Source: an uncultured Gammaproteobacteria bacterium (GTDB taxonomy: Bacteria > Pseudomonadota > Gammaproteobacteria > Steroidobacterales > UBA11654). From it: 64,000 nucleotides of DNA. The stretch covers positions 25,786 through 89,785 of the forward strand of contig CACDKD010000001.1 of NCBI GenBank assembly GCA_902553145.1. The letters are read 5' to 3'. The notes beneath the pieces were generated by a model. The model was not told the origin of the DNA, made no database searches, and was given only the letters and a program-made list of their open reading frames with translations. Positions 21,056 through 35,608 of this stretch are shown here, in pieces. The translations under genes and the position numbers were made by a program. Every line of letters begins with the position of its first letter. Position 1 is the first letter of the stretch.

Positions 21056-21910
21056 ATGAGCGGAATCATCGACATTGTAGTAAACCTCTATACACCTACA
21101 GAAGTGGGTCTTGGACAAACTGGGCTGGATGACGAATTCAAGGAACAAGTCCGAATGCCTGAGGAAATGAGGCCTGGTGTCACTATCCCAGACTACATTA
21201 AAAAAATGGATAACGCAGGAATTGAACGCTCATTATTGATCGCAGTTCGAGCAGGAGATATAAGAGTAGAGGAATCTTTTGAAGTGCCATATGAAAGTGT
21301 TCATAAGGTTTGTCTTGAAAACCCTGACCGATTTTCTGGATTGGCAGGAATTGATCCTTTCAGAGGAATGGAAGGCTTAAGAGATTTAGAATATGCGGTC
21401 AAGGAAATGGGATTTGTTGGGGCACATCTATACCCCCATTGGTGCGAACTACCGCCCAATCACAGGAAATACTATCCATACTATGCAAAGTGTTGTGAGC
21501 TCGGTATACCAATTATGATGCAGGTTGGTCACAATTTAATCTATTCCAGAAATAGGCGCCTACCCAGCGTTGGGAAACCAATATACCTTGATGAGGTTGC
21601 GATTGATTTTCCTGAATTGAAGCTGATTGGAATTCACATAGGTATTCCTTGGACTGATGAGATGATATCCATGTGCTGGAAACATGAAAATATCTATACT
21701 GCCGGTGATGCCTATGCACCAAAATATTGGCCAGAATCGTTTGTTCACTATGCAAATTCTTATGGGCAAAACAAAGTGCTCTTTGGAACAGACTGGCCTG
21801 TGATTGATCCTGAGAGAGCAGTAAAAGAATTCAATGATCTTAATTTTAGAGAGGCTGCGTCTCAGAAAATATTGAGAGAGAATGCTTTGGAAGTCTTCAG
21901 TTTAAGTTAA
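21056..21910 (+). CDS. Amidohydrolase-2 (ACMSD-like) family protein lacking the usual HxH
   Basis: A 284-residue TIM-barrel protein of the amidohydrolase-2 group, which includes decarboxylases and hydrolases acting on aromatic-ring cleavage products. Later barrel motifs are present: histidine in MQVGHNLIYS, histidine in LIGIHIGIPW and aspartate in VLFGTDWPVID. At strand 1, where the family normally has HxH, it reads IIDIVVNLYTP, so the first two metal ligands are absent. It is followed 12 bp later by the acyl-CoA synthetase. Activity may be non-hydrolytic or use a different metal arrangement. Confidence 0.78.
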   Translation: MSGIIDIVVNLYTPTEVGLGQTGLDDEFKEQVRMPEEMRPGVTIPDYIKKMDNAGIERSLLIAVRAGDIRVEESFEVPYESVHKVCLENPDRFSGLAGIDPFRGMEGLRDLEYAVKEMGFVGAHLYPHWCELPPNHRKYYPYYAKCCELGIPIMMQVGHNLIYSRNRRLPSVGKPIYLDEVAIDFPELKLIGIHIGIPWTDEMISMCWKHENIYTAGDAYAPKYWPESFVHYANSYGQNKVLFGTDWPVIDPERAVKEFNDLNFREAASQKILRENALEVFSLS

Positions 21911-21922
21911 GACTTTTTTCTC

Positions 21923-23446
21923 ATGATTACTGATCTGCCATCCTCATTCAAGCATACCGTTATCTCTGATGGAATATTATCTGCTTGTTCTCAGAGTCCC
22001 TCTAAAGTTGCATATAAACATGGGCAAAAGACAAGAACATATCATGAACTGAAGCAGAGAATTGACTCAATTTCTGGGATTATCCATTCTTTTCAGACTC
22101 CAAACAAATGCAATATTGCAATTGTTGCATCTAATTCGATTGAGTATATGGAAATTGTTCTAGCTGCCTCCAAGTTGGGTCATCCAATTGCCACCGTTAA
22201 CCCCAAATTGACAGCAAATGATATTGTTTCAATCTGCGAAGATGCTGAAGCAAAATTGGTATTTGTTGATCAGAAAGTCTCATCTTTGCTGGTTGGTAGA
22301 AATATCCGAGGTGTTCAAGAGATTATTGGAATAGATAACGAGATGGAAACCCTTATCGCTCAAACTGAATGCCCAAGTCAGCTTCCAACCATTAAAGAAA
22401 AAGAAACATTTACAATCCCTTACACATCTGGGACGACAGGAAAACCAAAAGGTGTTTTAGTGCCCCATCGATCAAGAGCTCTGACTCTTTATGGGATGGC
22501 AGATGCTTATGGTTGTTTTTCTTCTGATGATCGCTTTCTTTCTATTGCCCCAATGTGCCATGGCGCTGGGATGATCTTTTCATTAGCACCCATATTTTTT
22601 GGAGGCTATGCAGAGATTATGGATGACTTCAATCCTGAATTGGTAATGAAAACTCTTGAAGACGAGGAAATGACAGGTTTTTTTGGAGTTCCAACCCATT
22701 TTTATGGGATGCTAGGCGTAGATCAATCCATTCTTGACAACTGCTCTGGAAGCTCATTAAAAACGATCATATCAAACGCAGCCGCACTGCCACAATCATT
22801 AAAAGAAAAGATTGTTAAACATTTTGGAGAGGGGCTGCTTTATGAATGTTATGGTTCAACGGAAGGTGGAATTATTTCAAATCTAGGGCCAGATGACCAA
22901 TTAAGAAAAAAGCAATGTGTCGGAGAGCCCTTTCCTTTTACAGAGATAAAAATTTTAAATAATGATGGTGATGAATGCGGGCCAAATGAGGTTGGGGAAG
23001 TTTTCACAAGCAGTCCATATATATTTAATGGCTACTGGCAAAAAGAAAAAGAAACTCAAGATGCTTTTGACGGAGAATGGCTTACAGTAGGCGACCTTGC
23101 TAAAAAAGACGAAGATGGGTTCCTATACATAGTCGATAGAAAAAAAGACATGATCATCTCGGGTGGAGTCAATATTTATCCAAGGGAAATTGAAGAAGTG
23201 CTCTTAGAGCACCCAGAGATTAATGATATTGCTATTGTTGGTGAGCCTGATGAAAAATGGGGTGAAATCATTAAGGCATTTATTGTTTTCAAAGAAGAGG
23301 AACTTTCCCTTGATGTGATTCAAGATTTTTGTAGTAATAAAATCGCGTCTATTAAAATGCCAAAGATTATTGAAACAATTGATGCATTACCAAGAAATGC
23401 CAATGGCAAAGTACTCAAAAACGAATTAAGAGGAACAAAATCATGA
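21923..23446 (+). CDS. AMP-dependent acyl-CoA synthetase/ligase
   Basis: A 507-residue ANL-superfamily enzyme that activates a carboxylic acid to its CoA thioester via an acyl-adenylate. The P-loop motif is IPYTSGTTGKPKGV, the A5 motif is YECYGSTEGG, the hinge is VDRKKDMIISGGVNIYP, and the catalytic lysine is in PRNANGKVLKNEL. It overlaps the next gene by 4 bp. The neighbours suggest an aromatic or other unusual acid rather than a fatty acid, but residues alone do not tell. Confidence 0.9.
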   Translation: MITDLPSSFKHTVISDGILSACSQSPSKVAYKHGQKTRTYHELKQRIDSISGIIHSFQTPNKCNIAIVASNSIEYMEIVLAASKLGHPIATVNPKLTANDIVSICEDAEAKLVFVDQKVSSLLVGRNIRGVQEIIGIDNEMETLIAQTECPSQLPTIKEKETFTIPYTSGTTGKPKGVLVPHRSRALTLYGMADAYGCFSSDDRFLSIAPMCHGAGMIFSLAPIFFGGYAEIMDDFNPELVMKTLEDEEMTGFFGVPTHFYGMLGVDQSILDNCSGSSLKTIISNAAALPQSLKEKIVKHFGEGLLYECYGSTEGGIISNLGPDDQLRKKQCVGEPFPFTEIKILNNDGDECGPNEVGEVFTSSPYIFNGYWQKEKETQDAFDGEWLTVGDLAKKDEDGFLYIVDRKKDMIISGGVNIYPREIEEVLLEHPEINDIAIVGEPDEKWGEIIKAFIVFKEEELSLDVIQDFCSNKIASIKMPKIIETIDALPRNANGKVLKNELRGTKS

Positions 23447-24104: not shown

Positions 24105-26876
24105 ATGGTCGCCATGTCCAAATTTAACAGAAGAAACTTTTTAAAAGGCTCTGCATCATTGGGTCTTGCGTTGAATTATTCTTCATCGGCTGTTGCGGTT
24201 GACACTCAGACCCAATATCGTTCCTGGGAAGACGTCGCAAGAAAAAAATGGACTTGGGATAAAGTCAGTAGATCCACACACGGCACCAACTGCACTGGTC
24301 AGTGCGCTTTCAATGTTTATGTAAAAAATGGCGTGGTCTGGAGAGAAGAGCAACAAGGTGAATACGGTTCTTCTGGAGATGCTCCTGATTATGGGCCAAG
24401 AGGATGTCAAAAAGGATTGAGTCATTCTCGTTACATGTATGGTAAACAGAGAATACTTTATCCTCTGAAACGAGTCGGAGAAAGGGGCGAAGGAAAGTGG
24501 GAAAGGATCACCTGGGAACAAGCCATGTTGGAGATTGCAGATAAATTCATAGATCACTCTGTTGAGCATGGGCCGGAAGCAATCACATGTGGGCTTGGTA
24601 CGCAAATGGTCATGAAAAGAGCTTCTTATGCCAGCATTATGCGATTTGCAAATATCACTGGGGTTCAGATGCCAGAGGCATTTGCAGGAGTCGGTGACTT
24701 ATTCTCTGGAGCTCAAATCACTCTTGGGCATGTCACGCTTGGTAACACAATGGCTGAGATTTATAAATCCAAGTGTTGCTTGATTTGGTTCTGCAATCCG
24801 GCAGTCACAAGAATACCTGACGCTCATTTTTTCTGGGAAGCAAAATACAATGGGACTGAAGTAATCTCAATCTCGCCAGACTTTAACGCCACAGCAATGC
24901 ATGCCAGCAAATGGCTTAATCCAAAACCTGGAAGTGATATTGCTCTTGCAATGGCAATGATTGAAACCATCATAAGTGACAAGAGTTATGATGAGGATTA
25001 CATGAGGGAGCAATCGGATCTCCCATTTTTGGTAAGGAAAGACAACTTAAAATATTTAAGAGAGACGGATCTGCCCCAAGCTTCGGCTGATGCGAAAGAT
25101 AATCGGTTTTATTTTTGGGATGAAAAGAATGATCAGTTAACTGAAGCACCTGGAACCGGAACACCTCCTGTGCCACCTCCTGGTACGCCCGAACATCTCA
25201 TACCGCCTATGCCTTCTATTGACCTTCAGGGACTAAAACCAGCGATTGAGGGTTCGTGGACCATTGAAACAAAAGATGGTCCGGTCGAGGTCACGACTGT
25301 TTTCGAACTGGTCAAACAAAGATCGTCGGAACACACTCCTGAATATGCTGAAGAAATAACTGGCATAAGTGCTAAAGTCATTAGAGACGTAGCAAGAAAA
25401 TTTGCTAGCTCGAAGCCGGGGATGATCTACGCAGGTTATCGAGCCTCGAAATATCTTCATGGGGATCTATTGCAAAGAGCATTATTTTTATTGCTTTGCA
25501 TCACTGGCAATACTGGCAAAGAAGGTGGTGGTCTTACCATCACAAACCTTGCAAAAGATGAAAGCGCCCTTTTTCCATTCGCTCTCAAAAATCCAATTGC
25601 AGCCTTCCGTGTAGCCACGCTCTCAAGATGGGACTATGTTCATGCAAACATGAAAGAATTCAATGAAGAAATGTATGGAAAAGAACTGGCTGATGAATAC
25701 GATCATCATTTCAAAGAGTCAGTTAAAAATGGGTGGTTTCCAGACTATTCAAAGAAACCTTGGAAGATGGGACTCTTTTCAGGAACCAATGCTGCCAGCT
25801 GGAGATCGTCCGGAAAAAGATGGAGAGAAAATGCTTTTAGTAAGCTGGAAACCATTGCGACTTTTGCTACCGATATGGGTGCTACAGCAATGTATTCTGA
25901 TTATGTATTGCCGATCTCGCATCACTATGAAAGACATGACTTCCACCTAGAACCAAGAACGCCGTATATGCAGGTCATAGACAAAGCGGTCGAGCCTTTG
26001 GGAGAGAGTGTCGATGACTGGACTGCATATAAAAGACTTGCCGAAGCAATCTCCATTCGAGCAAAAGAAAGAAACATAAGCCCCATACCTGATAATGTTG
26101 TGGGCGTTCCGTTTGCGAGAGATATGACAAAATATCACGATGACTTCACCGATGAAGGGAAAATTAAGTCCGTGAAAGATGTTATTCAATTCCTTCTGGA
26201 CAATACCACAGGCATCCAAAACGTTAAATATGAGGAACTTGCGGCAAAAGGTTTTTTGAGAAATAAAGGCTCTGAAACCACGCTCCATTCAAAAGAGTCG
26301 CCCTTTTTCTCAGAGATTTATGACAATGTTAGGGAAAAGACCGGTTACAAGACTTTGACCCACAGGCAACAATTTTATATTGACCACGACTGGTTTGTTA
26401 AATTCGATGAAGCATTGCCAGGACATAAAGATGCTTTAATCAATGAAGGCTATCCCATGAAAATGCTCATGGGCCATGCTAGGCATGGTATTCATAGCAT
26501 GTGGCGTGATGACAGCTTTCTTCTCAGCCTTCAAAGAGGGGAACCTGATGTCTATGTCAATCCAGAAGATGCAAAAACCAAGGATGTTGTGGATGGCGAG
26601 CTAATCAGAGTTTTTAGCAAATCAGGATCGTTTATTGCTCAAGCACATGTAACCTCAGCGATGGGCCCTAATATGCTCTACATGTATCATGGGTGGGACC
26701 CAATGATGTTCAGAGGTCGTGAGAATTTTGGTGCAGTCGTTCAAACAGGAGGTCTTATAAAGCCCACGTCTTTAGTGGGAGACTATGAGCATTTGGGATG
26801 GAAACCCTTTGCTTATGAACCCAACCATACCTTTCATGACTTCACATGTGATTTTGAAAAGTACTCAGAAGCCTAA
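24105..26876 (+). CDS. Type II DMSO-reductase-family molybdopterin oxidoreductase, catalytic subunit (Tat-exported)
   Basis: A 923-residue molybdoenzyme catalytic subunit. It begins with a Tat signal (FNRRNFLKGSASLGLALN). The FS0 cluster site reads H-x3-C-x3-C (HGTNCTGQC, H59/C63/C67) with a fourth ligand in GPRGCQKG (C101). This His-ligated pattern is typical of the type II group, which includes DMS, ethylbenzene, selenate and perchlorate enzymes. A candidate Mo ligand Asp is in AGVGDLFSG. C-terminal cofactor-binding segments (LMGHARHGIHSMWRD) are present. No iron-sulfur beta, haem gamma or chaperone gene is adjacent; a convergent MFS gene follows after 2 bp. Substrate unknown. Confidence 0.88.
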   Translation: MVAMSKFNRRNFLKGSASLGLALNYSSSAVAVDTQTQYRSWEDVARKKWTWDKVSRSTHGTNCTGQCAFNVYVKNGVVWREEQQGEYGSSGDAPDYGPRGCQKGLSHSRYMYGKQRILYPLKRVGERGEGKWERITWEQAMLEIADKFIDHSVEHGPEAITCGLGTQMVMKRASYASIMRFANITGVQMPEAFAGVGDLFSGAQITLGHVTLGNTMAEIYKSKCCLIWFCNPAVTRIPDAHFFWEAKYNGTEVISISPDFNATAMHASKWLNPKPGSDIALAMAMIETIISDKSYDEDYMREQSDLPFLVRKDNLKYLRETDLPQASADAKDNRFYFWDEKNDQLTEAPGTGTPPVPPPGTPEHLIPPMPSIDLQGLKPAIEGSWTIETKDGPVEVTTVFELVKQRSSEHTPEYAEEITGISAKVIRDVARKFASSKPGMIYAGYRASKYLHGDLLQRALFLLLCITGNTGKEGGGLTITNLAKDESALFPFALKNPIAAFRVATLSRWDYVHANMKEFNEEMYGKELADEYDHHFKESVKNGWFPDYSKKPWKMGLFSGTNAASWRSSGKRWRENAFSKLETIATFATDMGATAMYSDYVLPISHHYERHDFHLEPRTPYMQVIDKAVEPLGESVDDWTAYKRLAEAISIRAKERNISPIPDNVVGVPFARDMTKYHDDFTDEGKIKSVKDVIQFLLDNTTGIQNVKYEELAAKGFLRNKGSETTLHSKESPFFSEIYDNVREKTGYKTLTHRQQFYIDHDWFVKFDEALPGHKDALINEGYPMKMLMGHARHGIHSMWRDDSFLLSLQRGEPDVYVNPEDAKTKDVVDGELIRVFSKSGSFIAQAHVTSAMGPNMLYMYHGWDPMMFRGRENFGAVVQTGGLIKPTSLVGDYEHLGWKPFAYEPNHTFHDFTCDFEKYSEA

Positions 26877-26878
26877 AG

Positions 26879-28141
26879 CTAGAATACATCCTCTCTTGGA
26901 ACTGGCTCAAGAAACATAAATATAATTGCTGCAAGAATAATTGGTATGATTCCGACATATGTGTAGCCCATATTCCAGCCAAAAGCCGTCGCAGCATACG
27001 TGATAGCAAGAGGCCCTAAACCAAAGCCTAGATTGATTGCCAGCGTTCCAGAGAAACTTGCTGCTGTCGCCCTAAGTTCTGCTGGAAAGTTCTCTGCTAT
27101 AAAAGTTGCCATGACTGCATAAGCGCCATAAAAAAATAGTGTCATAAGTCCGTAAACTATCAATACTTGAGTCCAACCTTCTGCCCACCAAATCAGCATT
27201 ATGAAGGCAAGGCTTCCAGAAAGAGCCCAAATGATGATTGTATTTCTTCTGATTAGGAAAAACTCCCCAACAATTGCGGCAGCAATATATCCAAATGCAC
27301 CTATGCCATATGAATAACCAACAATTTTAATGGCATCGACTATGCTCCATTCTCTTTCTTGAGTGAAATACAACACCAGCATCAGCGTACTGCCGTATGC
27401 AAATGCATAAAGAAATTGGCCTGTAAAGAGAAGCAATGTTTTTCTTCTCCATTTTTCCTTAAATAAAACCATTGTGCTGACGGAGGGCTCGCCTTGAGGT
27501 TTTGATGCTTGAGATTTTAACCAAGCTTCTGATTCAGGAAGATACTTATAGATTATCCATCCATATGGAAGGAAAAGCAGGGCCAATAAAAAAGTATATC
27601 GCCAATTGATTCCAAGTTGCTCAATCATGAATGCCACCAAAACTGATGCAAAGAACCAGCCTAAGGGAAACCCAATCTGTAGTATTCCTGTGAAGAGACC
27701 TCTGTACCTCGGCGGAGATGACTCAGTTACTGTAGTCAATGTGATTGGTGATTGAGCTCCAGCTGCAGTAAAACCCAATGTTCTGGCAATAAGCACAGAT
27801 ATTGTGTTTGGAGCAATAGCCAGGAATGCAACAAAAATGGGCGTTAAAAAAGTTGACCATAAAAGGGATTTTCTTCTTCCAATTCGATCCGTGAGAACCC
27901 CAACTTGTGTGCATAGAATTCCAGAGATAAAAAATGTTATTGCGACATACCAACCAACATCTGTTAATGACCATCCGAAATCATTTTGAAATTTCTCACT
28001 GACCAATATAAAAATTGAGTGGTCTAAATTTGCAAACGTCACTCCGATTAAGCAAATGAAGAAGATTTTATACGATTTGAAAGGGATATCTTTGAAAGAT
28101 ATTTCACTGGATGGTGTATTCAAATTCTGATTGTCTGACAT
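26879..28141 (-). CDS. MFS transporter (metabolite:H+ symporter-like)
   Basis: A 420-residue, 12-helix major facilitator. The loop 2-3 motif is GVLTDRIGRRKSLLW and the TM4-5 region reads ARTLGFTAAGAQSPITLT. FIAENFPAELRATAASF resembles the aromatic-acid and sialic-acid symporter branch. It lies between the molybdoenzyme and nitrilase genes, so import of a pathway substrate is plausible. It converges on the molybdoenzyme gene and diverges from the nitrilase gene. Confidence 0.88.
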   Translation of the reverse strand: MSDNQNLNTPSSEISFKDIPFKSYKIFFICLIGVTFANLDHSIFILVSEKFQNDFGWSLTDVGWYVAITFFISGILCTQVGVLTDRIGRRKSLLWSTFLTPIFVAFLAIAPNTISVLIARTLGFTAAGAQSPITLTTVTESSPPRYRGLFTGILQIGFPLGWFFASVLVAFMIEQLGINWRYTFLLALLFLPYGWIIYKYLPESEAWLKSQASKPQGEPSVSTMVLFKEKWRRKTLLLFTGQFLYAFAYGSTLMLVLYFTQEREWSIVDAIKIVGYSYGIGAFGYIAAAIVGEFFLIRRNTIIIWALSGSLAFIMLIWWAEGWTQVLIVYGLMTLFFYGAYAVMATFIAENFPAELRATAASFSGTLAINLGFGLGPLAITYAATAFGWNMGYTYVGIIPIILAAIIFMFLEPVPREDVF

Positions 28142-28242: not shown

Positions 28243-29385
28243 ATGACGCTCCAATATTCTGCAGTTGGGATACAAAACGAATCGCATATGGCAACCACCA
28301 TTGACGATTACTGGAAAGATCTGGAAAGGCTCCAGACCAGTATCGCTTACGCTGTATGGAATTGTAGCTTGGATTTGCCTGTTCAACTTGTATCAATCTC
28401 TGAAGGTGGAATTGGAGGGTGGTGCCTTGGTGGAGGCGAAGAACACCTTCGTATATACAATGAGGTCGTCCCTGAAATACCTGGAAAGGAAACAGAATTT
28501 CTTGGTGAAATATGTAAGCAATTCAATATTTATCTTATTGCTCAAATGGTTGCGAAAGTTCCAGAGCTTATGCCCGATAGAATCTTTAATGTTGCATTCA
28601 TTATCGATCCAAAGGGCGAGCTCATCCATACCCATATAAAAACATCTTTCTATCAGAAAGAAACAAACACAGCGCCTAGTGATATTTGGGACATTTATCT
28701 TCAAAAATATGGGGATGATCCAGAGAAACTCCATGATGCATTGTATCCAGTCGCAAAAACTGAGATTGGGAATATTGGAACGTTGATTTGTGCAGAGGGA
28801 AGTTATCCTGAAGCTGCTCGAGGTCTTGCCATGAATGGTGCTGAAATAATATATAGATCACAGTATCCAGAGCCATGGATGGGAAATAATATGAATCAAA
28901 TACAGAATCAATCACATGCCATATTTAATACTTGTTATGTGCTTGCTCCTAATATTGGTGGAATCTATATGCCCGGTGGAGAAGACTTTAAATTCAGTAA
29001 TGGAAAAAGCCAAATCATTGATTATAGAGGCCAAATTATCTCTGAATACCTGAGTGGTGGAGAAGCACTAGTCAGTGCAATTGTAAACATTGATGGCCTA
29101 AGAGATTTTAGATTGAGAGGACAGTGGCAAAATTTAACGAAAGATATGCGGGTTGAAGAATACAAAGTCATCTATGATGCGATGATGGCAAAAGGCGGGA
29201 TATATCCAAAAAATCTATGTATGAATGAACCCCCATTCACCGAAGAAGATCAGGTTGAACTGGTCAAGCATCAGGTAAATAAAATGGTAAAGCTGGGTAT
29301 ATATACTGCTCCAAAAAATTGGGAGCCCTATGATATTAAAGAATCTGTTGCCGAGAGAATCAAAAAAACTGAGACTGGGTCTTAG
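28243..29385 (+). CDS. Nitrilase-superfamily carbon-nitrogen hydrolase (catalytic triad intact)
   Basis: A 380-residue hydrolase of the nitrilase superfamily, closest in layout to aliphatic amidases. The triad can be placed as Glu54 (VSISEGGIGGW), Lys133 (HIKTSFY) and Cys183 (TLICAEGSYPE). The long C-terminal extension (about 80 residues past the core) is shared with the paralogue at 30562. It has its own AAAGG ribosome-binding site and is followed 3 bp later by the DUF385 gene. Nitrile or amide substrates are likely; which one is unknown. Confidence 0.88.
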   Translation: MTLQYSAVGIQNESHMATTIDDYWKDLERLQTSIAYAVWNCSLDLPVQLVSISEGGIGGWCLGGGEEHLRIYNEVVPEIPGKETEFLGEICKQFNIYLIAQMVAKVPELMPDRIFNVAFIIDPKGELIHTHIKTSFYQKETNTAPSDIWDIYLQKYGDDPEKLHDALYPVAKTEIGNIGTLICAEGSYPEAARGLAMNGAEIIYRSQYPEPWMGNNMNQIQNQSHAIFNTCYVLAPNIGGIYMPGGEDFKFSNGKSQIIDYRGQIISEYLSGGEALVSAIVNIDGLRDFRLRGQWQNLTKDMRVEEYKVIYDAMMAKGGIYPKNLCMNEPPFTEEDQVELVKHQVNKMVKLGIYTAPKNWEPYDIKESVAERIKKTETGS

Positions 29386-29388
29386 AAA

Positions 29389-29832
29389 ATGATTTGGCGT
29401 CTTTTTATCAATCCCGTCATGATCTTTTTTTTAAGATCGCCCCTACACTTCCTTGCTAGCCACAGTGTTCTGGTTCTATATGTAACTGGAGCAAAAACTG
29501 GCAAGCAATATTTTATACCCGTAAGCTTTTTTCAACACAGAACAGGATTGTTAACATGCGTGACTGATAAACCGAATATATGGTGGAGAAACTTGACCGA
29601 TGCTAATGAAATAAAAATTTTATTTAAAGGCAGGGAGATTCAATCGAAAATAAATGTTGAACCCAATGATTCAGACTATATATATCCAAAACTTAATGCT
29701 CTTTTTACTCATAGTCGTATCGATGGTTTTTTTGGGGGCGTTGGTTACAAAAAAGGAAAGCCTATTGAGGAAGACATCGTAGAGGCGACAAAAAGAATGG
29801 TCCTCATTGAGTTAGATTTCACTGAATCTTAA
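29389..29832 (+). CDS. DUF385 / deazaflavin-dependent nitroreductase-like split-barrel protein
   Basis: A 147-residue split-barrel protein resembling the Ddn/DUF385 family. The TGAKTGKQYFIPVSFF segment corresponds to the family's TxGRxSGxxR...L region, and KPNIWWRNLTDANE matches its PxWxxNL motif. In actinobacteria relatives bind F420; F420 use in this organism is not shown, and FMN or haem binding are alternatives. It forms a two-gene unit with the nitrilase and overlaps the convergent FkbM gene by 21 bp. Confidence 0.7.
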   Translation: MIWRLFINPVMIFFLRSPLHFLASHSVLVLYVTGAKTGKQYFIPVSFFQHRTGLLTCVTDKPNIWWRNLTDANEIKILFKGREIQSKINVEPNDSDYIYPKLNALFTHSRIDGFFGGVGYKKGKPIEEDIVEATKRMVLIELDFTES

Positions 29833-30561
29833 GTTTACCGCCGCCTTTCTTGGAACATTGTCTTGATCTAGCATATGAGGGCAAATAAATTGATCTCCAA
29901 GTTTTTTTGGACTCTTTGAAAAACTCAGCTCTATTGCTTTGGGGTCACCCTCCTCATCCAAACGATTATTATTCGGGTGAATATGGATCAGTTTTAGTGA
30001 TATTTGATCTAGAAATTTTTCGATTTTCTCTCTATTTTCAGATACTGCATGAAATTCGATTACCAATCCGGATAAACTATCACTGCATGCGATAATTTCA
30101 TCTAGAATTTGATACTCGTATCCTTCGATATCTACTTTAAGAAATATTGGCATATCATCCAGTCTTTCCATCGCTTGATTCAAGTTGGTATCACAACCTG
30201 TCGCAGTGCCAATTTTTTCCAAAAATAAAGATGCATGCTCTTTAAAAAATACTCTAAATTCTAAATAAAGTTTTACCGCTTGAAAGGGTGCAAAAAGCCT
30301 TCCAATTAAAATCGTAATAAGCCTTTTAAAAAAATGCTTAATCCAGTATGGAGTGCCTATAGAGTAATCATAAGCATGAACCTTGACTTTCTTCCGCTCT
30401 ATAAAATCTTTTTCGAAACTCCAATTTCTTCCTATGCCCAACGCAAGGAGTGCGGCAGAGTTTTCAATAGACTTTGGATCGACAAGATAACCGCCATCGT
30501 TATCGCTGCCTAATCTAATCAGATCGAATGAGCCGTCTGGTTTATAGCTTTTTGGCAGCAT
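29812..30561 (-). CDS. FkbM family methyltransferase
   Basis: A 249-residue SAM-dependent O-methyltransferase of the FkbM family. The N-terminal DNDGGYLVDP and the LKVDIEGYEYQILDEI motif (catalytic/SAM region, about residues 140-155) are characteristic. A hydrophobic basic stretch around residues 70-95 may associate with membrane. It starts one base upstream of the end of the nitrilase-like gene, so the UbiD, nitrilase-like and FkbM genes probably form one minus-strand operon. The acceptor molecule is unknown. Confidence 0.82.
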   Translation of the reverse strand: MLPKSYKPDGSFDLIRLGSDNDGGYLVDPKSIENSAALLALGIGRNWSFEKDFIERKKVKVHAYDYSIGTPYWIKHFFKRLITILIGRLFAPFQAVKLYLEFRVFFKEHASLFLEKIGTATGCDTNLNQAMERLDDMPIFLKVDIEGYEYQILDEIIACSDSLSGLVIEFHAVSENREKIEKFLDQISLKLIHIHPNNNRLDEEGDPKAIELSFSKSPKKLGDQFICPHMLDQDNVPRKAAVNLRFSEI

Positions 30562-31623
30562 TTATTTTTTAGATTTTTCGGTATAGATTCCAGATTTGAT
30601 GAGCTTCTTCACTGAATCGTTAAACACCTTTCCCGCGTCCTCATGATTCATTGGCGGAAGGTTATTTGGCCATATAGGTCGATCATAAAGTTTTTTGAAT
30701 ATCTCGGTTTTGAGATAAGGAATCCAGTTTTGAAATCTTGCGTTTTGACGATAATGCCTCAAAGCTTCAATGTTTATTTCACTTGCAGTGTATGCATCTC
30801 CAACAGTGTCTGTCTTTGAAAGTATTGTTCCTTTGTAATCAATTATTGATGATCTGCCGCCTAAGGCACCATCAATTATTGTTGGATCTCCGTTGTCTTC
30901 AGATGGCATTATTAGGGATCCTGTATTTGGCGCTATCATGTAAGCAGTGTTATCAATCGCTCTTGATCGATTCTGAACTTCAAAGATCTCTCTGGAGACC
31001 CAAGGTTCAGGCAAGGATGCCCTGTAAAGAATTTCTGCCCCATTTAGAGCAAAAGCCCTGAATGATTCTGGGAAAGAGCCCTCTACACCAACGGTGCCTG
31101 CAATATTCCCTATTGGAGTTTTGGCAACTGGAAAGAAAGCATCGATAGAGTCGCCGTGTTGCTCGACCCATTGATCATAAACATCATGAGGTGTCGTTGA
31201 GTGCTCAACAAATACCACAATATTCTTATGATGCTTGTATATGAGATCTCCGTTGTCATCGATGATGAATATTGTATTAAAAAATCTATCTTTGTATTCC
31301 GGAAGTCTCTCCTTGAGCTGTCCGATGATAAAGGTGCCTTTTTCTTTTGCCAGAACTCCTAAAAAGTCTGTTTCAGGGCCTGGTATTTCTGCCGCCATTA
31401 TTTTTGCGTATTCGGCCTGATTCATATCCAATATCTCGTCAACAAAGCCCTGAACTGCACCTTCGCCTAGTGCAATTAACTTTACGGGTAACTCCAATGA
31501 ACACATGTGTGTCACCATCTCGATCATATTTCCAATATGATCAAGATTGGTCTGAACCTCGTCTCTCGTTTTGACATGCTTGACTTTGGTTTGGAGAGCT
31601 ACTGCTAAATATGGATCTATCAT
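30562..31623 (-). CDS. Nitrilase-like protein lacking the catalytic cysteine
   Basis: A 353-residue paralogue of the nitrilase at 28243, alignable over most of its length (for example NGAEILYRASLPEPWV against NGAEIIYRSQYPEPWM). Glu54 and Lys133 are kept, but the nucleophile position reads GTVGVEGS instead of LICAEGS, so Cys is replaced by Gly179. The frame is intact and the rest of the core is conserved. It should not work as a normal nitrilase or amidase; it may be a pseudoenzyme, regulator or partner. It sits 8 bp after the UbiD gene. Confidence 0.85.
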   Translation of the reverse strand: MIDPYLAVALQTKVKHVKTRDEVQTNLDHIGNMIEMVTHMCSLELPVKLIALGEGAVQGFVDEILDMNQAEYAKIMAAEIPGPETDFLGVLAKEKGTFIIGQLKERLPEYKDRFFNTIFIIDDNGDLIYKHHKNIVVFVEHSTTPHDVYDQWVEQHGDSIDAFFPVAKTPIGNIAGTVGVEGSFPESFRAFALNGAEILYRASLPEPWVSREIFEVQNRSRAIDNTAYMIAPNTGSLIMPSEDNGDPTIIDGALGGRSSIIDYKGTILSKTDTVGDAYTASEINIEALRHYRQNARFQNWIPYLKTEIFKKLYDRPIWPNNLPPMNHEDAGKVFNDSVKKLIKSGIYTEKSKK

Positions 31624-31631
31624 TTTTTTAC

Positions 31632-33023
31632 CTATATATAGTTCTTTAGATCTATATTTTCTTCGTTTGGAATTACAGGCTTTACTAAGTCGTCCGCATA
31701 GTCCATATCTTTGGTCGCATCAATACCTACTCTTGCTGATGTCCCATCAGGTAGTGCAGCTCTGTCAACTTCCCATGTTACAAAATTTGGAAATGTATAT
31801 AACTTTTCCGCTCTACCCATCCTAGTCCAAGTAGCCCATTCCACGTCATCCATGTCATTGGGGTCGACATCATCGTCTACAATGATGATTCTTTTTGCCA
31901 TCCAGGCGAGGTTGAAAAACCCCATATTCATTTCAAAGAGCTCCTTTATCATCCGCCCAGGTTCGTCGTCGTCACTCTTTTTTATTGCGATAACCAAATG
32001 CATTAAAGGGCCAATTTTTGTATCAAAGTGAACTGCAATATCTGTCACATTTGGATAGCCTTGCCTAATTTTTTGCTCGAGTCCTTTTGAGATGCCATAC
32101 ACTGTTAGATAACCAAGATTGTTATGCTCTTTCGCTCTACCTGCCATCAGCGTATAGAACATTGCATCGTTCCTTTGCAACAAACTTGTTACTTTACACA
32201 TTGGAGCATGCTCAGTGCCATATTGAGCACCGAATTCCCCTAACGTGTTTTCTACCATATTGTCGAGATCAACAATTGTCTCAAATGCCATTTCACAATC
32301 TGCTGGTATCGGCAGTCCCGAGTCTGGGCCTGTTATAACTTCAATTGCTTCACCATTAATGCCTCCAGCAACATCTAGTTCTGAAACTTCATCTGGAGAT
32401 TTAGAGGCAGCAGCCATTAGTAAAGCAGGTGGAGCACCTAAAACCATAGCAACCCTCATTTCTTTATTATTCTCCTTATGCCAGGCATAAGCTTTTCTTA
32501 GATCGCTCAGTCCGCTGGCATTGATCAAAAGATTTTCTTTATCAATAATCAAGCATCTATAGAATCCAACATTAATTTTGCCATTGGGTTTTTTAAAAAT
32601 GCCTACGGCAGCCGTCAGGAATGGGCCTGTATCAAGCTCAAAAAATGTAGGGGCAGGAAGCGTGGTGAGATCAATCTCACTTCCCTGTAGGATTGTTTCT
32701 GTTACATGACCAGAATCAACATGTTTGTAAGGTATTGGATTTGCAATCCCAGACATAACTTTTTGTCCGGCTTGTTCATATGTAAAATTTTCACTACCGT
32801 CATCATTAAAAATGAGTCCATAGCGACCCATGGAAGTGAATAAGCCTCCTACCGCCTTATAATCTGAATTCTCAACATTCTCAAATATGAAAGCCTTAGA
32901 CTCCTCTTCAAGAGTCTTCATTAAGGCAGCCATTTCATATTCTGGTTTGACTGGTTTTTTAATTTTAACCAGCTTCCCTTGTGACTCGAGTAATTCTATA
33001 ACCTCTCTAAAGGATCTATGCAT
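31632..33023 (-). CDS. UbiD family prenylated-FMN-dependent decarboxylase
   Basis: A 463-residue UbiD-fold protein. Members reversibly decarboxylate aromatic or unsaturated acids using prFMN. The N-terminal FREVIELLESQGKLVKI, the EYEMAAL metal-region start, the AMVLGAPPALLMAAAS motif, the PIPADCEMAFE segment with catalytic-type acids, and the C-terminal IIIVDDDVDPNDMDDVEWA are typical. The ubiquinone-biosynthesis UbiD is usually about 490 residues with different motifs, so a catabolic role is more likely here. No ubiX is in the window. It heads an operon with the nitrilase-like and FkbM genes. Confidence 0.87.
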   Translation of the reverse strand: MHRSFREVIELLESQGKLVKIKKPVKPEYEMAALMKTLEEESKAFIFENVENSDYKAVGGLFTSMGRYGLIFNDDGSENFTYEQAGQKVMSGIANPIPYKHVDSGHVTETILQGSEIDLTTLPAPTFFELDTGPFLTAAVGIFKKPNGKINVGFYRCLIIDKENLLINASGLSDLRKAYAWHKENNKEMRVAMVLGAPPALLMAAASKSPDEVSELDVAGGINGEAIEVITGPDSGLPIPADCEMAFETIVDLDNMVENTLGEFGAQYGTEHAPMCKVTSLLQRNDAMFYTLMAGRAKEHNNLGYLTVYGISKGLEQKIRQGYPNVTDIAVHFDTKIGPLMHLVIAIKKSDDDEPGRMIKELFEMNMGFFNLAWMAKRIIIVDDDVDPNDMDDVEWATWTRMGRAEKLYTFPNFVTWEVDRAALPDGTSARVGIDATKDMDYADDLVKPVIPNEENIDLKNYI

Positions 33024-34333: not shown

Positions 34334-35608
34334 TTACATAAATATAAGATCAGATATCCTATCATACTTCCCTGGCACTATCATCGGACACATTCCATTG
34401 ATTTTATCTTGTACCTTTATTAAAGATAGCCTGAGATTATCTATCTGTTCATTTTCTAATGAGCTGTCAGTATGAGGAATGTAATTTTCCCTAATCCCTA
34501 AAAGTTGATAGTAATGTTTTCTTGGTATTGAGACGTTATCACAGATATTTGCAAAACTTTTCCTTATAGATTCAGGATATACTTCCCACTCAATTGTTGA
34601 TGATAATTTGACTAGAGATTTTCTAAGATTTGTTATTGGTTTACCTGTTTTAGGATTATAAAAAACGTATTCGCTTTGATAGATACCTGTATTTGCATAT
34701 AAATATTCGTATGTGTGATTTAGAACCGATTGAATATCATTTGTTATCGGAACTACTTGAATAAATTTACTTCTTTTCTTTATGGTTATATGGCTATTAT
34801 CGGTAATTTGTTTCGCCTTAAGTTGTAAAATATCGTTCTTTTTTAAACCAGTAATAGTCATCATATAAATTACATTTCTTGTAATTATGTTGAGTCTATG
34901 TTCATCCATAGGATCACATAAGTTATATAAGTACTCTGGGTATTCACTAATGATATCTAATTGTTTTTTTGATGTTTTTTGGCCAGTAATAACCATCTTT
35001 CTTCTGAACTCATTTGCAGGATTATTTTGTAAATAATAAAGTCCTGAAGAGGATGCATGCTTAAAGATTTTTGAAAGTAACATCAATGCATTTTTTGATG
35101 CCGCTGGTGTATGACTATTATTTCTCCACCATTGTTCAATTTTTTCTAATGTTATGGATTCAATAGTGTCATTATGAAATGATTTGAGTTTATTAGAGAG
35201 TAAGTAATTAAGATTATGAGCAAAATGATTTGTTGAGTGTTCGCCGGTAGACTTTTTCTTTAACAGGTACTCATTGGCAATATCAATAAATTTCATTGAA
35301 GAGTTAAACTGTTCTCTCTTAGTTTTTTTGAGTAGATTTGGATCTATCCCCTTCTCCAATAGATCAATAGTTTGAAGATGTAAATCAATTGCGATAGGCA
35401 GGGATAATTTCTCTTTGGATCCATGCGTGATTGTTCTTGGATTACCTCCGCCTTTTATTCTTGCATAAGTAACAAAGCTTATTCTTCCAGATGGATTTAC
35501 TTTGATTCTGAGTCCCTTGTAGTCTGTCAATGTAATAAAGTACGCCTTGTCCTTTATAGGTAGTGATTCTAAATATTCATAAGAAACTTTATTACTATCT
35601 ATCCGCAT
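34334..35608 (-). CDS. Degenerate tyrosine recombinase/integrase (DUF4102-type arm domain)
   Basis: A 424-residue protein with an N-terminal arm-binding domain of the DUF4102 type (ITLTDYKGLRIKVNPSGR), a SAM-like core-binding domain, and a C-terminal catalytic fold. The catalytic residues are eroded: box I reads TGLKKNDIL (Lys256 for Arg), box II reads PESIRKSF (Glu346 for His, Arg349 kept), and LLGIREN has Ile for the third-box His, with no Tyr at the expected spacing. The frame is intact. Base composition is more AT-rich than its neighbours. No tRNA or second attachment site is nearby. It may be a relic of an integrated element or a domesticated DNA-binding protein. Confidence 0.75.
   Translation of the reverse strand: MRIDSNKVSYEYLESLPIKDKAYFITLTDYKGLRIKVNPSGRISFVTYARIKGGGNPRTITHGSKEKLSLPIAIDLHLQTIDLLEKGIDPNLLKKTKREQFNSSMKFIDIANEYLLKKKSTGEHSTNHFAHNLNYLLSNKLKSFHNDTIESITLEKIEQWWRNNSHTPAASKNALMLLSKIFKHASSSGLYYLQNNPANEFRRKMVITGQKTSKKQLDIISEYPEYLYNLCDPMDEHRLNIITRNVIYMMTITGLKKNDILQLKAKQITDNSHITIKKRSKFIQVVPITNDIQSVLNHTYEYLYANTGIYQSEYVFYNPKTGKPITNLRKSLVKLSSTIEWEVYPESIRKSFANICDNVSIPRKHYYQLLGIRENYIPHTDSSLENEQIDNLRLSLIKVQDKINGMCPMIVPGKYDRISDLIFM

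Follow-up and report, generated by a model that had tools for sequence, protein, structure and literature searches.

A conserved nitrilase-fold protein lacking the catalytic cysteine is encoded beside a UbiD-family gene in marine Gammaproteobacteria

We analyzed a 64,000-nucleotide stretch of DNA (the window) and found a gene whose product, P1, is on sequence grounds a Cys-less protein, fixed and under selection, from the AmiE/AmiF-like branch of the nitrilase superfamily. Together with a UbiD-family gene it appears to form a two-gene, operon-like arrangement. The Cys nucleophile is regarded as defining the enzymes of this superfamily, and the usual amidase/nitrilase route runs through a Cys-thioester, a route that P1 cannot use because the nucleophilic Cys is missing. 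The features central to this finding are as follows.

30562..31623, minus strand: P1, Cys-less amidase/nitrilase-fold protein of 353 aa (Pfam CN_hydrolase, kept Glu54/Lys133/Glu140, AlphaFold2 fold match)
31087..31089, minus strand: P1 codon 179, GGT, Gly at the catalytic Cys position (read from the sequence)
31078..31098, minus strand: remodelled nucleophile strand of P1, residues 176-182, G-T-V-G-V-E-G (alignment with relatives)
31632..33023, minus strand: UbiD-family prFMN-type (de)carboxylase, which precedes P1 in the gene pair (Pfam, TIGR00148, synteny)
28243..29385, plus strand: P2, paralogue of 380 aa with complete Glu54-Lys133-Glu140-Cys183 (Pfam CN_hydrolase, co-inheritance with P1)

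Both paralogues cover the whole Pfam CN_hydrolase domain, P1 with 90.4 bits and P2 with 104 bits (cut-off 23.2), and P1 combines this domain with the alpha-beta-beta-alpha fold of the nitrilase superfamily. The source genome (1.44 Mb, 85% complete) encodes four CN_hydrolase proteins. The initial annotation had described an intact paralogue at 28243-29385 with Glu54, Lys133 and Cys183, next to a second protein that keeps Glu54 and Lys133 in an intact frame and has Gly179 where the Cys should be. Its coordinates and residues are exact for both, and P1 also keeps Glu140, the second amidase glutamate. Alignments to solved enzymes match Gly179 of P1 to the Cys in the formamidase from Bacillus cereus (ICHDGMFPE), and Cys183 of P2 (codon TGT at 28789-28791) to that in aliphatic amidase (ICDDGNYPE). 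The Glu-Lys-Cys triad of P1 is thus incomplete, with Glu54 and Lys133 in place and Gly179 for Cys. Substitution by another Cys is unlikely, since the only one in P1, Cys41, lies outside the active-site motifs. A search for P1-type proteins in phages found none.

Gly179 is conserved wherever we find P1. Orthologues were collected from the window's own family (f1) and from a second family of the same order (f15), giving 37 distinct full-length sequences of 60-99% identity. Gly occupies position 179 in all 37, which is more than chance would give, and Glu54, Lys133 and Glu140 are likewise invariant. All four Gly codons are used at this position (GGT 15, GGC 15, GGA 4, GGG 3), so it is the amino acid rather than the DNA that is conserved. 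When the window is compared pairwise with its four nearest genomes, dN/dS for P1 is about 0.02-0.04, and UbiD and P2 give similar values where dS is unsaturated. The initial annotation had asked whether the Gly is fixed in an orthologous group, and had named a Gly confined to this genome, under relaxed selection among orthologues with Cys, or a base-call error, as what would overturn it. Apart from the loss of the Cys itself nothing speaks for a faulty assembly or base call, or for a gene copy in decay, and this explanation is refuted: fixation across two families under strong purifying selection, in intact frames, is compatible with neither error nor decay. P1 has lost an essential catalytic residue, with the loss fixed in a selected gene, as expected of a pseudoenzyme. 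The same annotation had proposed a pseudoenzyme or an enzyme with changed chemistry; the proposal stands insofar as the Gly is fixed and selected, while sequence cannot separate its two halves.

The change extends to the whole nucleophile strand, which reads G-[ST]-[VI]-G-V-E in 37/37 P1 proteins, compared with [TC]-[LI]-[IC]-C in most Cys relatives. Gly176, Gly179, Val180 and Glu181 are each present in every P1 sequence, position 177 is Ser (20) or Thr (17), and position 178 is Val or Ile. Among 54 Cys-bearing relatives, position 176 is Thr in 42, Cys in 9, Tyr in 2 and Ile in 1, and position 177 is never Ser or Thr but mostly Leu or Ile. Three further residues, Arg211, Pro302 and Trp318, are fixed in P1 alone. 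This pattern fits adaptation better than decay. The loss of the Cys with the remaining active site retained, and the constant place of the gene behind UbiD, suggest that an old enzyme shape has been co-opted for a new use in the P1 lineage. What the initial annotation noticed is, on these alignments, real and conserved, and more structured than was described there. An AlphaFold2 model of P1 (14 sequences, mean pLDDT 69, pTM 0.75) matches formamidase/amidase folds (Foldseek E 7e-21, probability 1.00), with formamidases as the best PDB matches. The model confirms the predicted overall fold, side-chain geometry being beyond its quality, and that Ser/Thr177 would point into the pocket is assumed from strand periodicity.

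The Cys is also missing from seven remoter relatives, which have Ala at this position and come from proteobacteria, actinobacteria, haloarchaea and one bacteroidete (plasmids of Tsukamurella, Haladaptatus, Halorientalis and Flammeovirga; gammaproteobacterial genomes G128, G395 and G506). All seven keep Glu54, Lys133 and Glu140, so retention of the pocket without the Cys recurs. By identity, the Cys-bearing proteins nearest to them belong to the ICMEG group. This type is rare in the order (1 of 295 genomes at the cut-off used), and a phylum-wide sample yielded no further members. In our trees the Gly proteins form one clade (100/100), and the Ala proteins are placed elsewhere, as one or two pieces. 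A single Cys-less clade of Gly and Ala proteins is favoured by neither tree, but an AU test does not reject it (p=0.16). Loss of the Cys has happened at least once and, judging from the trees, more probably two or more times. One Ala-type member and several Cys relatives lie near other UbiD genes; one Ala-type locus (L106) is part of an aromatic-type cluster that has a UbiD gene of its own, and in the Tsukamurella locus (L095) the neighbours are salicylyl-CoA hydroxylase and indolepyruvate oxidoreductase genes. The copy on the Flammeovirga plasmid (L099, 5980-7095) has also lost the Glu two residues past the nucleophile position (LAMGG) and sits on a very long branch; it is possibly a truly dead protein.

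The conserved hydroxyl residue at position 177, found in all P1 proteins and in none of the 54 Cys relatives, together with the retained Glu, Lys and Glu, raises the question of whether P1 is still an amide hydrolase in which Ser/Thr177 or water replaces the nucleophilic Cys. We consider this very unlikely: residue 177 lies two positions ahead of the nucleophile site, where a suitable geometry is only assumed, and Ser occurs there in just two of the seven Ala-type proteins.

The genomic context of P1 points to UbiD, a link that was absent from the initial annotation. In the window the two genes are separated by 8 nt. The Pfam UbiD N-terminal, core and C-terminal domains are all detected in the UbiD protein, its Arg and Glu..Glu positions align with those of solved UbiD enzymes, and its score against TIGR00148 is 235 bits, slightly short of the cut-off of 245; we assign it to the UbiD family. 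Throughout the P1 loci examined, from about 40 genomes, P1 is immediately preceded by a UbiD gene in the same orientation, the spacing varying between a short overlap and about 75 nt. Of the 39 f15 genomes, 28 have both P1 and UbiD, 1 has P1 only, 1 has UbiD only and 9 have neither (Fisher p=4.6e-7, a value which, like that for P2 below, ignores shared ancestry). The genome with P1 and no counted UbiD (G173) carries a partial UbiD at a contig end, which explains the exception, and in G152 a different gene follows UbiD, which therefore has no P1 beside it. Some f15 genomes, for example G089, G161, G058 and G094, have 8-12 UbiD-family genes each alongside many nitrilase-like genes, an unusual expansion.

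Strict adjacency and gene order in about 40 loci, co-inheritance and the loss of the nucleophile would all be expected if P1 were a catalytically dead accessory subunit of UbiD, which stabilises the enzyme, gates its active site or presents its substrate. This is possible, but we think it doubtful, because the Glu, Lys and Glu of P1 and the surrounding pocket are invariant and would be needless for a pure protein-protein role. In addition, the UbiD of G152 lacks P1 alongside, and UbiD relatives beyond the pair are known to function without such a subunit.

A ligand-binding pocket, perhaps with acid-base conversion, fits the sequence of P1 best. The invariance of all the other catalytic residues makes a mere scaffold unlikely, and the arrangement with UbiD would make the P1 ligand part of the UbiD step. 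We see about an even chance that P1 is a binding protein, and perhaps an enzyme, for an intermediate of the UbiD pathway, acting without a thioester, with P2 as the true amide hydrolase of that pathway. The pocket would still bind a compound resembling a carboxamide or carboxylate, which UbiD consumes or produces, and P1 would either pass this compound on or convert it by non-covalent acid-base chemistry using Glu54, Lys133, Glu140 and water, possibly with Ser/Thr177; P2 would perform genuine amide hydrolysis in the same pathway. Only tentatively do we propose that the P1 lineage is catalytic without an active-site Cys, through its rebuilt strand and water or Ser/Thr177 acting with Glu-Lys-Glu, and that its dedicated task is to convert what its partner UbiD consumes or produces. 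P1 also offers a handle on this UbiD pathway in marine bacteria.

The paralogue P2 follows the presence of P1 less strictly than UbiD does. Its orthologues all have the Cys. P1 and P2 share only 37-39% identity and fall in separate clades of the tree, so P2 is no recent duplicate of P1. In the 39 f15 genomes the two occur together in 25, P1 alone in 4, P2 alone in 1 and neither in 9 (p=3e-5); in three of the four genomes with P1 only, P1 is on a contig of 4-7 kb, and completeness is only 72-73% in two of the four. The initial annotation had suggested that P1 might be a partner of P2 or a ligand sensor. A hetero-oligomer of the two in which P1 has the regulatory or ligand-sensing role would agree with their being co-inherited neighbours in the window, and nitrilase-fold proteins often oligomerise. 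We nevertheless judge it unlikely: the two genes converge and so are not transcribed together, the distance between them in f15 reaches about 8 kb, one genome (G094) has P2 without P1, the sequences are as distant as just noted, and next to the plasmid-borne Ala-type members no further nitrilase-like gene is annotated. The co-inheritance thus favours a partnership weakly, upstream UbiD being the strongest partner by far, and P2 as the main partner of P1 is weakened by convergent genes, variable spacing and low identity. Right after P2, on the same strand (29389-29832), the window encodes a small protein that weakly resembles the deazaflavin-dependent nitroreductase family.

The pair lies in a wider cluster, which also holds P2; further genes around the pair in the window are as follows.

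21056-21910, plus strand: Amidohydrolase_2 protein (wider-cluster synteny)
21923-23446, plus strand: AMP-binding (CoA ligase-like) protein (wider-cluster synteny)
24105..26876, plus strand: molybdopterin oxidoreductase, DMSO reductase type II alpha-like (TIGR03479 860 bits, below the cut-off of 985; synteny)
26879..28141, minus strand: MFS transporter, aromatic-acid symporter-like (profile matches, synteny)
29812..30561, minus strand: FkbM-like methyltransferase, immediately 3' of P1 (profile match, synteny)

Genes for an amidohydrolase_2 protein, an AMP-binding ligase, a DsbA-like protein, a DMSO-reductase-type molybdoenzyme and an MFS transporter recur in f1 and in several f15 loci, and the whole looks like a cluster for catabolism of an aromatic or heteroaromatic acid. 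The FkbM-like methyltransferase recurs in f1 loci and was not detected in f15 loci; it is probably outside the core module. Some f15 loci carry isochorismatase, luciferase-like, bilin reductase and aldehyde dehydrogenase genes, and guesses at a substrate from these f15 neighbours do not converge on one compound. The ferredoxin-dependent bilin reductase-like gene adjoins the molybdoenzyme gene in some f15 clusters (L077, 6869-7588; L046, 14572-15624) and did not turn up in that of the window. A phage-integrase-type tyrosine recombinase gene (34334-35608 in the window) keeps a constant position in the cluster in every f1 locus whose flank is long enough; its sequence diverges fast (41-95% identity), and it is a resident rather than a recent element. 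A 4196-base contig filed as Dehalococcoidia (Chloroflexota) (L005, DDKW01000050.1) has the same four genes; their proteins are 92-99% identical to those of the marine gammaproteobacterial genus of the window, and the contig is probably mis-binned.

Among known systems, P1 is closest in design to the AmiF/AmiE amidases (PDB 5g3o, 2e2k, 2uxy, 2plq), with which it shares the fold, the Glu-Lys-Glu positions and the [DE]G.[FY]PE and GAE motifs; Glu140 aligns with their second active-site Glu (Glu142-type) and is invariant in P1. Its best NCBIfam matches are PRK13287 formamidase and PRK13286 aliphatic amidase, with scores of 50 and 48 bits that fall far below the AmiF/AmiE equivalog cut-offs of 406 and 427. 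P1 differs from these enzymes in the absent catalytic Cys, an identity of only about 20%, the remodelled nucleophile strand and the fixed UbiD partner. In open-access literature, as far as titles, abstracts and term counts go, we found no Cys-less member and no UbiD pairing, which is weak evidence of absence; annotation pipelines label Cys-less nitrilase-fold proteins as hydrolases regardless.

Closer by identity (about 34-47% over the full length) are unnamed "nitrilase-related carbon-nitrogen hydrolase" proteins, namely the P2, ICMEG and CCSDG groups, which resemble P1 in Glu, Lys, Glu and length, but retain the Cys. Some ICMEG-group genes lie near UbiD and AMP-ligase genes, although the fixed operon pair of P1 is not seen there. 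The Ala-for-Cys proteins (36-43% identical to P1) are like P1 in being Cys-less with Glu-Lys-Glu kept, and unlike it in having Ala instead of Gly and in that a conserved UbiD operon is not seen; on this comparison theirs is probably a loss separate from that of P1. Engineered Cys mutants such as MtCPA C158S (PDB 5h8k, 5h8l) also have the nucleophile removed with fold and pocket kept, and to go by the PDB titles one of them was crystallised with a bound ligand. Those mutants are laboratory-made, whereas in P1 the state is natural and selected, and the P1 lineage, with the Cys gone, the pocket kept and a tie to UbiD, is a natural test of the nitrilase fold without its nucleophile.
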